Shown in pieces: positions 3,847 through 7,774 of a stretch of 64,000 nucleotides of DNA. Source of the DNA: Sneathiella aquimaris (GTDB lineage: Bacteria > Pseudomonadota > Alphaproteobacteria > Sneathiellales > Sneathiellaceae); the NCBI RefSeq assembly GCF_026409565.1, contig NZ_CP112881.1, positions 3,169,501 to 3,233,500 on the forward strand, written 5' to 3'. Below the pieces are notes generated by a model. That model worked only from the letters and a program-made list of their open reading frames with translations, did no database searches and was not told the DNA's origin. Positions within the stretch are counted from its first letter, which is position 1. The number at the start of each line of letters is the position of its first letter. The position numbers and the translations under genes were made by a program.

Positions 3847-3952
3847 GAAGTTCGAATTTTTACGCGCTTGCCCCCTTGCCAGCAGAAGAACGGCATAATA
3901 CATAATGGCAACTGCCCAAAATGGGCAAAATGTTTGTCAGGAGTCGTCAGAT

Positions 3953-4924
3953 ATGGCTGAAACCCATAAAACCAGTGTTTTGATTATCGGATCCGGCCCT
4001 GCCGGTTGTACTGCGGCCATTTACGCGGCGCGGGCCTCCCTCAATCCAATCATGGTGCACGGCATTCAGCCGGGCGGGCAACTCACCATCACGACTGACG
4101 TGGAAAACTATCCGGGTTTCGCCGATCCCATTCAAGGCCCTTGGCTGATGGAACAAATGGAAGCTCAGGCAAAAAATGTCGGCACAGAGATCCACAATGA
4201 TGTCATCACCAACGTTGACACCTCCAAACGCCCTTATGTGGCGACGGCTGATTCTGGCGCAACCTATATCGCAGAAAGCATCATTATCTCGACAGGCGCG
4301 GCCGCAAAATGGCTTGGACTTCCGTCTGAAGAAAAATATATGGGCTTTGGTGTCTCTGCCTGCGCAACCTGTGACGGGTTTTTCTATCGCCAAAAAGAGG
4401 TTCTTGTTGTTGGTGGCGGAAACACAGCGGTGGAAGAGGCCCTGTATCTGACTAATCATGCCGACAAGGTAACAATTGTTCACCGCCGGGACCAATTCCG
4501 CGCGGAAAAAATTCTAGTCGACCGCCTGCATAAAAATCCAAAAATCGACGTCATCTGGGACCATGTTCTTGAAGAGATTCTGGGTGAAGAAGATCCTTTT
4601 GGCGTCGTGGCGGCACGTTTGAAAAATACCAAGACCGGCGAACTCAGAGATATTTCAGTTCATGGCGTCTTTATTGCAATCGGCCATAGCCCGAATACAG
4701 ACTTGTTTAAAGGCAAGTTGGATATGGACGATGAAGGGTATTTGATTACCGCCCCTGATTCGACAGCCACCAACCTTCCCGGCATCTATGCCTGCGGCGA
4801 TGTTCAGGACAAAATCTACCGTCAGGCCGTTACCGCTGCGGGTACCGGCTGTATGGCTGCGTTGGAAGCCGAACGGTTTATTTCTGAGCTGGAAGATGCA
4901 GGAGCCAGCGCTGCCGCTGAATAG
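3953..4924 (+). CDS. trxB: thioredoxin-disulfide reductase
   Basis: A 323-residue FAD/NADPH enzyme that reduces thioredoxin. The FAD-binding GSGPAGCTAAIYAARA motif is at residues about 13-28, the redox-active CATC is followed by DGFFYR near residue 138, the NADPH-binding GGGNTAVEEALYL comes next, and the second FAD motif YACGDVQDKIYRQAVTAAG lies near the C-terminus. The frame is open 16 codons further upstream, but the ATG at 3953 has an AGGAG 9 bases before it and gives the usual family length. The LysR gene follows 130 bases downstream. A short inverted repeat (TAGTGC/GCACTA) sits at the stop codon without a T-run. Confidence 0.97.
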   Translation: MAETHKTSVLIIGSGPAGCTAAIYAARASLNPIMVHGIQPGGQLTITTDVENYPGFADPIQGPWLMEQMEAQAKNVGTEIHNDVITNVDTSKRPYVATADSGATYIAESIIISTGAAAKWLGLPSEEKYMGFGVSACATCDGFFYRQKEVLVVGGGNTAVEEALYLTNHADKVTIVHRRDQFRAEKILVDRLHKNPKIDVIWDHVLEEILGEEDPFGVVAARLKNTKTGELRDISVHGVFIAIGHSPNTDLFKGKLDMDDEGYLITAPDSTATNLPGIYACGDVQDKIYRQAVTAAGTGCMAALEAERFISELEDAGASAAAE

Positions 4925-5056: not shown

Positions 5057-5947
5057 ATGGATTGGGATAAATTGCGCATTTTTCATGCTGTTGCTGAAGC
5101 GGGGAGCTTCACACATGCGGGCGAAATGCTCCATTTAAGTCAATCTGCGGTTAGCCGTCAGGTGAGTGCGCTTGAAGAAAGCGTTAAAACACCTCTTTTT
5201 CATCGCCATGCCAGAGGCTTGCTGCTCACAGAACAAGGTGAAATGCTATACCGGACAGCTCATGAATTTTCAGCCAAACTGGCCATGACAGAAGTCATGC
5301 TAACGGATACAAAGGAAAAACCTTCTGGCGAAATCAAAGTGACGGCTACCGTTGGGTTGGGGTCAAACTGGCTGACGCCCCGCATCCGTGAATTTACCGA
5401 GTTATACCCAGATGTCACGGTCAATCTGATCCTGGCTGACCGGGAATTGGACCTGAGCATGCGCGAAGCGGATATCGCCATTCGTTTGCGGGCCCCGGTT
5501 CAACCGGACCTTATCCAGCGGAAGTTAATGGCGGTGCGCCACCATCTTTACGCGTCCCCGGAATATCTGGAAGCGAACGGCACCCCAACTCGGATTGAAG
5601 ACCTGACCGACTATAATATTCTGGTATATGGCGAAGAAGCCCCGTCCAACATCTCAAATATAAACTGGGTTCTTCATACCTTGCGCGAGTATGACAAAAG
5701 CGTTGACCCCGTTTTTAAAGTGAACAATGTCTATGGCTTGCTACTGGCTATTCAAAGTGGCCTTGGTATTGGCAGCCTGCCTGACTACATCGTTCAGGGG
5801 CATCAGAATATCGTAAAAGTCCTGCCAGAGATCGAGGGGCCCAGCTTTGATACCTATTATGTGTATCCAGAAGAACTGAGAAAATCGAAAAGAGTGACAA
5901 TCTTCCGTGATTTTCTCATTCAGAAAGTTGCGGAAACCCCCTTTTAA
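5057..5947 (+). CDS. LysR family transcriptional regulator (LsrB/VtlR-like by position)
   Basis: A 296-residue LysR regulator. The N-terminal winged helix-turn-helix (MDWDKLRIFHAVAEAGSFTHAGEMLHLSQSAVSR, residues 1-34) and LysR substrate-binding domain (about 90-290) are intact. The start at 5057 is chosen over an in-frame GTG/ATG five codons upstream because the GGGGGGA tract stands 8-10 bases before it and the family begins MDW(D/E)KL. It lies after trxB and directly before three tandem small-RNA modules, each with a T-N11-A box of the type LysR proteins bind. This gene order matches, from memory, rhizobial lsrB/vtlR, whose products activate abcR small-RNA genes. Function here is inferred from that context. 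Confidence 0.93.
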   Translation: MDWDKLRIFHAVAEAGSFTHAGEMLHLSQSAVSRQVSALEESVKTPLFHRHARGLLLTEQGEMLYRTAHEFSAKLAMTEVMLTDTKEKPSGEIKVTATVGLGSNWLTPRIREFTELYPDVTVNLILADRELDLSMREADIAIRLRAPVQPDLIQRKLMAVRHHLYASPEYLEANGTPTRIEDLTDYNILVYGEEAPSNISNINWVLHTLREYDKSVDPVFKVNNVYGLLLAIQSGLGIGSLPDYIVQGHQNIVKVLPEIEGPSFDTYYVYPEELRKSKRVTIFRDFLIQKVAETPF

Positions 5948-5988
5948 AGCGTAATTTTTGGCAGAAATCATGGCCCTTGGAGGTGCTA

Positions 5989-6001
5989 TGCAGCAAATGC
6001 A
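5989..6001 (+). promoter_or_regulatory. T-N11-A box upstream of small RNA 1
   Basis: TGCAGCAAATGCA, an inverted repeat TGCA-N5-TGCA that fits the T-N11-A form of LysR operators. Near-identical boxes recur before the second and third small RNA at 6289 and 6528. The box centre is about 66 bases before the presumed RNA start, the usual place of a LysR recognition site. It lies 42 bases after the LysR stop codon. Binding is inferred. Confidence 0.5.
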
Positions 6002-6060
6002 TATCGGATCTGCCAATATTGAACTACTCATTCATGAAATATTTTCGTAAAAACGGGATG

Positions 6061-6217
6061 TCGATGCCGCTTATTAGCGCATCCTATTCGCGACAGTCTC
6101 CCAACTCTTCGCGAATTGACTGTATGTTCTCTCCCAAGACATACAGATATTCATGCCCTCCCAGGCATGAACCTCCCTGTTAGACTTGCCAACCTCTTTT
6201 GAGGTTGGCTTTTTTTT
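6061..6217 (+). ncRNA. AbcR-like small RNA, copy 1 (5' end approximate)
   Basis: The 3' boundary is firm; the 5' end is inferred from the operator spacing. Three consecutive hairpins each show CUCCC in the loop: ATTCGCGA/TCGCGAAT (6086-6116), CTGTATGT/ACATACAG (6120-6146) and TTCATGCC/GGCATGAA (6150-6171, loop CTCCCA). A fourth CUCCC is in the single-stranded block ACCTCCCTGTTAGACTTGCC at 6171, which is repeated in copies 2 and 3. A 9-bp terminator follows. CUCCC complements GGGAG of Shine-Dalgarno sites, so base-pairing repression of many mRNAs, probably with Hfq, is the likely role. No coding frame with a ribosome site is seen. The link to the AbcR family rests on position and motif style, not on an alignment. 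Confidence 0.7.
6188..6217 (+). terminator. Rho-independent terminator of small RNA 1
   Basis: A perfect 9-bp stem GCCAACCTC/GAGGTTGGC with a TTTT loop and a run of eight T (6210-6217). Compared with copies 2 and 3, an A-T pair replaces a G-C pair on both arms, a compensatory change that supports the fold. Confidence 0.9.
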
Positions 6218-6288
6218 GCTTATTTTGCTGCATCGCAACTAACTTTTTTTTACGCAAACGCCTTATAAATAGCCAAAAAATACAGAGT

Positions 6289-6301
6289 TGCAGAGAATGC
6301 A
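6289..6301 (+). promoter_or_regulatory. T-N11-A box upstream of small RNA 2
   Basis: TGCAGAGAATGCA, matching the box before small RNA 1 at 10 of 13 positions and lying exactly 300 bases downstream of it. Distance to the conserved ACCTCCCTG block is 180 bases, against 182 in copy 1 and 170 in copy 3. A second TGCA-rich segment (GTGCACTGCA) follows at 6305. LysR binding is inferred. Confidence 0.5.
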
Positions 6302-6360
6302 TAGGTGCACTGCAAAATAATTAGTGGTATTTTTTGAGCAGTTGCATATATTTCAATCAT

Positions 6361-6516
6361 CAGCGCTGCACTGCAGCAATGATCGAGTATCAACCTCATA
6401 TTGTTGGTGCTCCCGTTACTTGCCTTCCTCCCAGTTGCAAGTAACGATATGTCATCTCTGGATGACATACCTCCCTGTTAGACTTGCCAGCCTCTTTTGG
6501 GGCTGGCCTTTTTTTT
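6361..6516 (+). ncRNA. AbcR-like small RNA, copy 2 (5' end approximate)
   Basis: The second module. Visible hairpins are GTTACTTGC/GCAAGTAAC (6415-6445), whose 13-base loop carries CCTCCC, and TATGTCATC/GATGACATA (6448-6469) with a TCTG loop. A further CTCCC at 6410 is between hairpins. Then come the shared block ACCTCCCTGTTAGACTTGCC (6469) and a terminator. The 5' hairpins are unrelated in sequence to copy 1, but the layout (C-rich loops, shared block, terminator) is the same, so the copies have diverged except at functional sites. The start is inferred from the operator spacing only. Confidence 0.7.
6486..6516 (+). terminator. Rho-independent terminator of small RNA 2
   Basis: Stem GCCAGCCTC/GGGGCTGGC (9 bp with one T-G wobble), TTTT loop, and eight T at 6509-6516. 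Confidence 0.9.
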
Positions 6517-6527
6517 GTTTAAAGATA

Positions 6528-6540
6528 TGCAAAAATCGCA
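6528..6540 (+). promoter_or_regulatory. T-N11-A box upstream of small RNA 3
   Basis: TGCAAAAATCGCA, the least exact of the three boxes (the right arm is CGCA), but at the same distance from its RNA. A TAGGAT -10-like element at 6593-6598 lies 53 bases further on, directly before the first hairpin of copy 3. Confidence 0.45.
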
Positions 6541-6599
6541 TGGCAGACATGCATTTTCATCAAATCAAAAACTTCCGGGCGCTACCTATATGTAGGATA

Positions 6600-6746
6600 G
6601 GGCAAGGCCGTCCCCCAATACGGGCTTGCCTCACCGGTTTAGTCCGGTTACCGGCGATCAACATCTCCCAAGTAGATCGCCCCCTGCTTTTAGCAGGACC
6701 TCCCTGTTAGACTTGCCAGCCTCTTTTAGGGGCTGGCGTTTTTTTT
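6600..6746 (+). ncRNA. AbcR-like small RNA, copy 3 (5' end approximate)
   Basis: The third module, with the best-defined start: a TAGGAT -10-like hexamer ends two bases before a hairpin GGCAAG-CCGT/ACGG-CTTGCC (6601-6630) with loop CCCCCAAT. Then follow ACCGG/CCGGT (6633-6648), GCGATC/GATCGC (6654-6680) with CTCCC in its loop, and CCTGC/GCAGG (6683-6697). The shared block ACCTCCCTGTTAGACTTGCC starts at 6698 and the terminator at 6715. It has fewer CUCCC loops than copy 1. It converges with msrP on the other strand. Target mRNAs are not known. Confidence 0.7.
6715..6746 (+). terminator. Rho-independent terminator of small RNA 3
   Basis: Stem GCCAGCCTC/GGGGCTGGC (9 bp with one T-G pair), loop TTTTA, and eight T at 6739-6746. 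It faces the msrP terminator 10 bases away. Confidence 0.9.
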
Positions 6747-6756
6747 CCAAAGAAAA

Positions 6757-6775
6757 AGCCCGTAAAAAACGGGCT
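6757..6775 (-). terminator. terminator of msrP
   Basis: Stem AGCCCGT/ACGGGCT with a five-base A loop. The A-run at 6753-6757 gives the U-tract on the minus strand, 28 bases past the msrP stop. Confidence 0.75.
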
Positions 6776-6802
6776 CCATCAGATCTTCAGCGGATCTGCT
6801 TG

Positions 6803-7774
6803 TTACATAAACAAGCGCTCGTTCCCAAGGTCCTTATAAAGCGAAGCAACCTCGTTCGCATATCCATTATACATTAGTGTTGGGATACGTTTACCAGTTT
6901 CAAGATCCCGTTCTGTTGCCTGAGACCAGCGTGGGTGGCGAACTTCGGGGTTCACATTGGCCCAAAAACCATACTCACGGCTATTCAGTTTCTCCCAGAA
7001 GGTTTCCGGACGTTTATCCGTAAAATGAAACCGGACAATAGATTTAATCTGTTTAAACCCATATTTCCATGGAACCGCCAAACGAAGCGGCGCACCATTC
7101 TGTTTTGGCATCGGCTTGCCATACATGCCGGTGACCATAAACGCCAACTCGTGCGTTGCTTCGGCCATTGTCAGGGCCTCTGTGTAAGGCCAAGGGTACC
7201 AAAACTGCTTCTGACCAGAGGCCACAGATTTATCTTCAAAGGTTTGCATTACCAAATATTTCGCTGATGTTGTCGGAGCCGCCAGCTTAACAAGTTCACT
7301 CAGTTGAAAGCCGCTCCATGGCACGACCATTGACCATGCCTCAACACAACGATGGCGATAGACCCGCTCTTCCAAAGGCATCTTTGCCAGAAGATCGTCT
7401 ATACCGATTTCCATCTCTGTTTCGACCATGCCGTCGATCTTGACTGTCCAAGGCCGAACTTTTAGCGCCTGTGCCGCCTTGGAAATATTTTTGTGAGATC
7501 CAAATTCATAGAAATTATTATAGGTCGTCGAGATTTCTTCAGGCGTAATCGGACGTCCTCCGACAAATGCGTCATTCCTGGGCACAGGATATAACGCTGC
7601 ACTCGGATCAGTTTCAGCAGCGCCCGGTATGCCAGGGAAGGCAAGACTGGAACCACCTGCGATCAATCCGCCAATCCCCATCATTTTCAGCAGATGTCGC
7701 CGATTTAAAAAGACATCTTCCGATGTCGCCCTGTTTTCGCTGATTTCCCAGCCTTGTTTATTCCTGATAAGCAT
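6803..7774 (-). CDS. msrP: protein-methionine-sulfoxide reductase catalytic subunit
   Basis: A 323-residue periplasmic molybdopterin enzyme of the MsrP/YedY family, which reduces methionine sulfoxide in envelope proteins. A Tat signal (NRRHLLKMMGIGG, residues about 24-36) comes first, and the molybdenum-ligand cysteine lies in RHRCVEAWSM. The oxidoreductase fold fills the rest; length is normal. The usual membrane haem partner MsrQ is not adjacent on either side; it may be elsewhere or replaced. The molybdenum cofactor genes mobB-moeA-moaDE are 15 kb away in the same window. The gene sits alone between two terminators. Confidence 0.95.
   Translation of the reverse strand: MLIRNKQGWEISENRATSEDVFLNRRHLLKMMGIGGLIAGGSSLAFPGIPGAAETDPSAALYPVPRNDAFVGGRPITPEEISTTYNNFYEFGSHKNISKAAQALKVRPWTVKIDGMVETEMEIGIDDLLAKMPLEERVYRHRCVEAWSMVVPWSGFQLSELVKLAAPTTSAKYLVMQTFEDKSVASGQKQFWYPWPYTEALTMAEATHELAFMVTGMYGKPMPKQNGAPLRLAVPWKYGFKQIKSIVRFHFTDKRPETFWEKLNSREYGFWANVNPEVRHPRWSQATERDLETGKRIPTLMYNGYANEVASLYKDLGNERLFM

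Follow-up and report, generated by a model that had tools for sequence, protein, structure and literature searches.

Three predicted small-RNA genes in tandem behind the trxB-lysR pair of Sneathiella and their likeness to AbcR

The locus described here raises the question of what is encoded by the 855 bases which, in Sneathiella aquimaris, separate the end of a lysR gene (position 5947) from msrP (6803, minus strand). It lies within a stretch of 64,000 nucleotides (hereafter the window) of a 3.94-Mb genome consisting of a single contig. The original prediction had described the interval as three AbcR-like small-RNA (sRNA) modules in tandem, and three sRNA genes behind trxB-lysR are strongly supported by a held-out covariance model, by covariation and by synteny. 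The array likely represents a familiar way of working in a new arrangement, i.e., three LsrB-linked sRNAs directed against ribosome sites; no description of such a three-sRNA array was found in the open-licence literature as judged by titles.

Layout and fold of the interval

The interval is preceded, on the plus strand, by trxB (3905-4924; thioredoxin-disulfide reductase, TIGR01292 above cut-off) and by the gene of a LysR-family regulator (5057-5947; Pfam HTH_1 and LysR_substrate), the positional orthologue of VtlR/LsrB, and it is bounded by msrP (6803-7774, minus strand; methionine-sulfoxide reductase subunit, NF003767 above cut-off), which closes the syntenic block in Sneathiella. Its anatomy is directly visible: the claim of a gene-free stretch holding three boxes, three blocks and three terminators was borne out to the base by string search and terminator scan. 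The 20-nt block ACCTCCCTGTTAGACTTGCC was found as an exact string at 6171-6190, 6469-6488 and 6698-6717 (all plus strand), the box-to-block distances amount to 182, 180 and 170 bases and boxes 1 and 2 start 300 bases apart, whereby the spacing put forward in the original prediction was reproduced throughout. At up to three mismatches no further match to the block was obtained in the window (0 in 100 shuffles), and its first 18 bases, at up to two mismatches, locate to the three array sites only within the 3.94-Mb genome, thus the block is no dispersed repeat. Terminators were called on the plus strand at 6188-6209, 6486-6507 and 6714-6738 (with T-run 6188-6217, 6486-6515 and 6714-6746), the region holding six terminator-like sites versus 0.8 in shuffles. 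The three plus-strand sRNAs, the 5' ends of which are approximate, were placed as follows: sRNA 1 (6050-6217) comprises hairpins with CUCCCA loops at 6098, 6131 and 6158, then linker and terminator, sRNA 2 (6352-6516) a hairpin with a UUCCUCCCA loop (CUCCCA at 6428), linker and terminator, and sRNA 3 (6594-6746) hairpins including a CUCCCA loop at 6665, again with linker and terminator. Alignment A3 suggests CATATA at 6345-6350 (CTATAT in several relatives) as the likely -10 element of sRNA 2, and for sRNA 3 the likely -10 element is CTATAT at 6586-6591 (both plus strand), identical to the alphaproteobacterial sigma-70 hexamer quoted in an excerpt of PMC8844928; a promoter scan called no plus-strand promoter in the region, the two likely -10 elements included.

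Upon folding, every unit was better than all of its 200 shuffles, with z-scores of -8.6 (sRNA 1), -7.8 (sRNA 2) and -6.3 (sRNA 3). CUCCC stretches number four in sRNA 1, three in sRNA 2 and two in sRNA 3. According to the predicted folds CUCCCA is unpaired in the five loops named above, the linker CUCCC is unpaired in sRNA 2 and partly base-paired in sRNAs 1 and 3 (for the latter in the MFE fold, the block being open in the centroid), and the CUCCC at 6410 of sRNA 2 is mostly paired.

The conserved structure becomes apparent from the relatives within the genus. For module 2 (23 genomes) five hairpins with 95.2% paired cells were identified, and 24 of 46 pairs show two-sided changes. Four of five covariation measures exceeded all 500 shuffles and all slid controls, whereby it has to be considered that the structure was taken from one alignment row and is hence favoured over its slid versions; the fifth measure (further pair types) gave 49 versus 52.0 in shuffles, 485 of the 500 being as high. 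For module 1 (21 genomes) two-sided changes were found in 25 of 28 pairs and all five measures lay above every shuffle and also above every slid control; kinship among the sequences may inflate such counts, though not usually to the extent seen here. The exchange of GCCAACC/GGTTGGC for GCCAGCC/GGCTGGC in the terminator stem, to which the original prediction had pointed, is real and belongs to this wider covariation. The UUCCUCCCA loop of module 2 remained unchanged in 23 of 23 genomes while its stem varies, and variable stems combined with fixed C-rich loops fit the expectation for RNAs pairing with ribosome-binding sites. Conservation is lower in module 3, for which RNAalifold predicted the terminator only, its 5' part being too diverged for the alignment used. 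Alignments A3-A5 omit Oceanibacterium, and A5 omits genome G004 too.

Two further features accompany the modules. Near the presumed start of many of them, single-copy loci included, a short hairpin GATGTTGC-NNN-GCAACATC recurs (e.g., A5 columns 8-28), which may represent either a 5' hairpin of the RNA or a second operator at the DNA level. Moreover, the linker CUCCC is lost in module 1 of four genomes, two of which (G005, L118, and G007, L119) have CUCCC in the terminator loop instead, this not being the case in G006 and G009.

Homologues, synteny and copy number

A covariance model of 78 positions (R1), representing the 3' part of the RNA, was trained on 25 loci outside Sneathiella. When applied to the held-out window, R1 matched exactly the three modules and nothing else (6140-6217, E 1.5e-18; 6439-6515, E 1.6e-18; 6673-6745, E 1.6e-13), and with these full-length matches the units classify as members of the R1 group, i.e., the trxB-lsrB-linked CUCCC sRNAs as defined in the present analysis. 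Genome-wide, with 150 of the 898 candidates scored, one further site was obtained (E 2e-6), which was considered as an extra array member and rejected, as it is BjrC1505 (RF02356), a known separate family. This BjrC1505 sRNA (73.2 bits; G000:C1:3167058-3167129, L087:1445-1572) is located 8.6 kb upstream of the array and outside the window; as many Sneathiella genomes likewise have R1 matches at a distance of 6-9 kb from the array, one of which, in L011, is BjrC1505 too, its position is probably syntenic in the genus.

Of 80 lysR loci, 37 showed an R1 match at E <1e-5 in the first 1 kb 3' of the gene, 25 of them being the training loci. Of these 37, 32 carry one copy, one (Oceanibacterium) carries two and four carry three, the latter (L004, L006, L007 and L011) all belonging to Sneathiella. 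The synteny is likewise a direct observation: of 80 relatives, 72 have trxB directly ahead of the LysR gene, and the order trxB-lysR-array-msrP is kept at all 21 Sneathiella loci for which both flanks are available. Irrespective of position, an R1 match was present in 47 of 60 relatives and, under strict filters and among the matches listed, in at least 149 of 289 sampled alphaproteobacterial genomes. Some of these class-wide matches will belong to other RNAs whose 3' end is similar, BjrC1505 being an example in the genome of the window; the matches point to a family model that is missing from Rfam.

The genus was covered with 24 genomes (G000-G023), in 21 of which the lysR-msrP interval is unbroken. 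At E up to 1, R1 identified three modules in 18 of these intervals and two in G005, G006 and G009; reading of the sequence revealed a third module with a diverged linker in G005 and G009, hence three modules are present in 20 of 21. Two modules were found in G006 (66% complete) and no array in G010 (65% complete), and the array begins at a contig end in G004 (three modules) and G012 (two). In a midpoint-rooted tree of 68 module rows, from which module 1 of G004 was dropped for N bases, all third modules lie to the same side of a branch (support 95/93), as do the second modules together with the second one of Oceanibacterium (90/80), the first modules being the remainder and not one group, with two placed weakly near the third modules. 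As the tree sorts modules by position, the copies look old and position-specific, and the three copies would date to about the base of Sneathiella.

The claim that three copies are new holds for the lysR-linked setting, where three model hits are confined to the four Sneathiella loci among the 80, but it does not hold for tandems of three as such: in G228, from another family, three related units follow one another over 0.6 kb, and the 7 kb inspected there contain neither lysR nor trxB, therefore a tandem of three is not unique to Sneathiella. Seven non-Sneathiella genomes with at least three R1 matches were followed and lysR was sought beside four of them (G228, G253, G208 and G046; three of the four matches of G208 lie at contig ends), whereby lysR linkage was identified for the pair of G253 only. 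This pair (L209) consists of two R1 units in tandem behind trxB-lysR. The 1.8-Mb genome of G228 has six R1 matches on four contigs (L208, L212-L214).

Operator boxes and the LysR regulator

According to excerpts of PMC7486931 and PMC8844928, the VtlR/LsrB consensus reads GCAT-N3-TG-N3-T. Box 2 (GCATAGGTGCACT, 6289-6313) matches this consensus exactly, and box 1 (GCATATCGGATCT, 5989-6013) and box 3 (GCATGGCAGACAT, 6528-6552) show one mismatch each (all plus strand), with up to one mismatch to the short box being weak evidence when taken alone, as 336 of 2941 background stretches reach it. An extended box, TGCA-N6-GCAT-N4-G-N3-TGC, is exact in all three copies; this pattern was derived from them, and the module rows and the lysR-locus survey serve as independent tests. 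Within the region the chance mean at up to one mismatch is 0.57, and 3 of 100 shuffles also gave three matches. At the same stringency the extended box precedes all 24 second modules, 23 from Sneathiella genomes and one from Oceanibacterium, versus 0 of 2941 background stretches, and it occurs within 300 bases 3' of lysR at 29 of 77 loci versus 9 of 2704. First modules have it within two mismatches in 22 of 23 cases, and third modules within three of 12 mismatches in 14 of 22 (background 94 of 2941), box 3 being decayed in part of the genus. This loss recalls AbcR2 of Sinorhizobium, which is independent of LsrB according to an excerpt of PMC8844928.

Genome-wide, the extended box was found at 31 places when one mismatch was allowed, versus four for the reversed pattern. 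Exact matches number six, three in the array, two inside open frames, one of which (L129) fits the short published box as well, and one outside open frames, which lies ahead of the gene for a DUF1127 protein of 74 residues, at 95 bases from its start; of the non-array boxes, the three exact ones were inspected and the 25 with a mismatch left aside. The DUF1127 gene was reached through the box search without prior selection, and VtlR of Brucella melitensis mainly controls AbcR2 and three DUF1127 proteins, as stated in an excerpt of PMC12595884. Both the operator and its reuse before the DUF1127 gene are direct observations. A cobalamin riboswitch (103.7 bits, L134:544-721) lies about 0.9 kb before this DUF1127 gene.

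The LysR protein of the window is 75-80% identical to those of L004-L007 and L011. It contains no cysteine, and the same applies to 54 of 80 relatives, among which three sequences were read partly. LsrB of Agrobacterium and Sinorhizobium is described as a cysteine-based redox switch (excerpt of PMC11975290), so any redox response of the RNAs would take another route than a thiol switch, and the cysteine-free regulator raises the question of how general the LsrB thiol-switch model is.

Kinship with known small RNAs and proposed action

At curated cut-offs Rfam gave no match in the window. Below cut-off, matches were obtained to SorX (RF02784; 36.6, 33.7 and 32.8 bits, cut-off 46.6), to SorY (RF02651; 31.8, 30.8 and 17.8 bits, cut-off 111) and to MmgR/suhB (RF00519; 34.1, 29.8 and 27.4 bits, cut-off 41), and one S. 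chungangensis copy passes the SorX cut-off with 50.4 bits. These sub-threshold matches result from a shared 3' module, as SorX and SorY of Rhodobacter and MmgR have, like the array, a hairpin, a ACCUCCCUGUU-GACUU linker and a terminator; they differ from it in their locus, and their models are without the 5' multi-hairpin part. Several homologous RNAs side by side, as in the array, are also found with CcsR1-4 of Rhodobacter and LhrC of Listeria. Several anti-Shine-Dalgarno motifs within one RNA are a property shared with NfeR1 of Sinorhizobium (excerpt of PMC8844928), whereas CcsR1-4 and NfeR1 belong, as far as their partial descriptions go, to other loci and other regulators, kinship being compared by Rfam scans. 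According to an excerpt of PMC8307010, SorX and SorY target transporter mRNAs and depend on stress sigma factors, unlike the array with its proposed LysR control.

SorX is processed from an mRNA 3' UTR (PMC6238624), and given its similar 3' end the array, which lies downstream of lysR on the same strand, might be a processed 3' UTR of lysR too, or else consist of attenuators, in place of three sRNA genes each having a promoter, an assumption which the silence of the promoter scan on the plus strand would fit. This is considered very unlikely, since each unit's terminator would stop read-through into the next unit, and the extended box, at up to three of 12 mismatches, is present before nearly all first modules (22 of 23), every second module (24 of 24) and most third modules (14 of 22) versus 94 of 2941 background stretches. 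Three repeats in a row could also be taken for a non-coding repeat or a mobile element with chance hairpins, to which we assign next to no probability, as it is refuted in practice by the block occurring nowhere else in the genome, by the position-specific relatives across the genus and by the covariation of the modules.

The rival closest to the original prediction is that the units are true AbcR (ar15) RNAs, i.e., a third copy added to the rhizobial family. AbcR1 and AbcR2 (ar15, RF02345; Rhizobiaceae and Brucellaceae) are, like the array, tandem sRNAs just 3' of trxB-vtlR/lsrB (excerpts of PMC7486931 and PMC8844928) with a VtlR/LsrB operator upstream, which in the array is predicted from sequence; they also present CUCCCA within the loop of a hairpin (known as motif M1 in Brucella AbcR; excerpt of PMC5461406) and have likely transporter targets such as livK (excerpt of PMC3712013), those of the array being candidates. 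The repression of transporter mRNAs with the help of Hfq, by which AbcR is characterised, was approached for the array through the complementarity of sites. In addition, at lysR loci without a strong R1 match, many of which are of rhizobial type, 14 of 27 weak matches (E 0.0037-5) lie on the plus strand within 1 kb 3' of lysR, which a terminator at that place could cause by itself. True AbcR identity is nevertheless judged unlikely. The ar15 model was searched directly, because ar15 and suhB share a clan and cmscan would hide an ar15 match under suhB; in the genome of the window (150 of 169 candidates scored) no array match was found at E≤10, the best match elsewhere scoring 19.5 bits, whereas the control (Aquibium, G318) reached 50.3 bits (cut-off 40) and in loci of Nitratireductor and Aquibium ar15 matches likewise sit immediately 3' of lysR. 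The second AbcR motif (M2/aSD2, GUUCCC or UUCCCCUC, between stem-loops 1 and 2) occurs in neither form on the plus strand of 5948-6802, and the 3' half scores with SorX, SorY and mmgR instead. With neither an ar15 match nor an M2 motif, the array RNAs are therefore not AbcR members as the family is now defined. They further differ by their length (about 150-170 nt versus 121 and 114 nt), by being three, by carrying the ACCUCCCUGUUAGACUUG linker in addition to as many as three CUCCCA loops, and by a box at each copy, whereas AbcR2 of Sinorhizobium depends on RpoH1 (excerpt of PMC8844928). Of the AbcR-like label, place, operator and CUCCCA loops hence stood, while model match and second motif did not: the array RNAs appear to combine these three AbcR features with a different RNA body, and are AbcR-like in place and probably in action, but not ar15 by model.

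A wider reading, to which we give even chances, assumes a class-wide alphaproteobacterial family of trxB-lsrB-linked anti-Shine-Dalgarno sRNAs, of which the rhizobial AbcR would be a diverged offshoot, whereby Sneathiella would have kept three paralogues with separate regulatory fates since about the origin of the genus, under a cysteine-free LsrB unable to act as the cysteine switch of Agrobacterium and Sinorhizobium. The general idea is already in print, since an excerpt of PMC8844928 states the AbcR1 region to be highly syntenic across alphaproteobacteria. The array would extend the circuit from LsrB to sRNAs, which has been studied in symbionts and pathogens within a single order, to relatives far away from that order and with a differently built RNA, and three positional relatives in about 20 species, together with natural losses of one operator, render the origin of AbcR and the retention of sRNA copies testable.

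For the array itself, the preferred reading of three separately transcribed, LysR-activated, trans-acting sRNAs, which block translation at G-rich ribosome sites probably together with Hfq, is held to be very probable. Transcription, activation by LysR, the role of Hfq and the targets are steps that we infer as follows. Each of the three sRNAs, of about 150-170 nt, would be transcribed separately, and the neighbouring LysR protein (the VtlR/LsrB orthologue) would most likely activate each of them via its own predicted operator. In their predicted layout several hairpins, CUCCCA being present in one loop (sRNAs 2 and 3) or in three (sRNA 1), are followed by the ACCUCCCUGUUAGACUUG linker and the terminator, and the C-rich loops, plus the linker where it is open, may pair with G-rich ribosome-binding sites and hence block translation, Hfq being the probable partner. 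The sRNAs would probably shut off nutrient-uptake and other genes.

Candidate targets were searched with two complementary patterns, yielding 25 rows (16 and 9), of which six were judged real gene starts; the rows set aside comprised short frames, starts lying far inside a longer open frame, a duplicate and the antisense of the array itself. With control patterns, 13 rows were obtained, ten of them real gene starts, Pfam being run on four of the ten. Transporters were not enriched among the genes with complementary sites (two ABC components of six versus three TRAP binding proteins of ten in the control), and one of the six candidates (L178) had no Pfam match. The best-conserved candidate target would be the gene of a LivK-type substrate-binding protein (Pfam Peripla_BP_6) with the leader CUGGGAGGAA, to which the module-2 loop UUCCUCCCAG may pair. 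The predicted duplex of loop and leader amounts to -19.0 kcal/mol, in a comparison which favours the test set by construction and leaves out one of the ten control genes (L189); three other test genes form stronger duplexes and one control gene also reaches -19.0 kcal/mol. Homologues of this gene at E≤1e-100 are present in 11 of 24 Sneathiella genomes, and each of these 11, the most distant at 64% protein identity, carries CTGGGAGGA ahead of its start, the weight of this conservation being limited as ribosome sites are conserved for their own sake anyway. In Sinorhizobium, livK is a known AbcR1 target (excerpt of PMC3712013).
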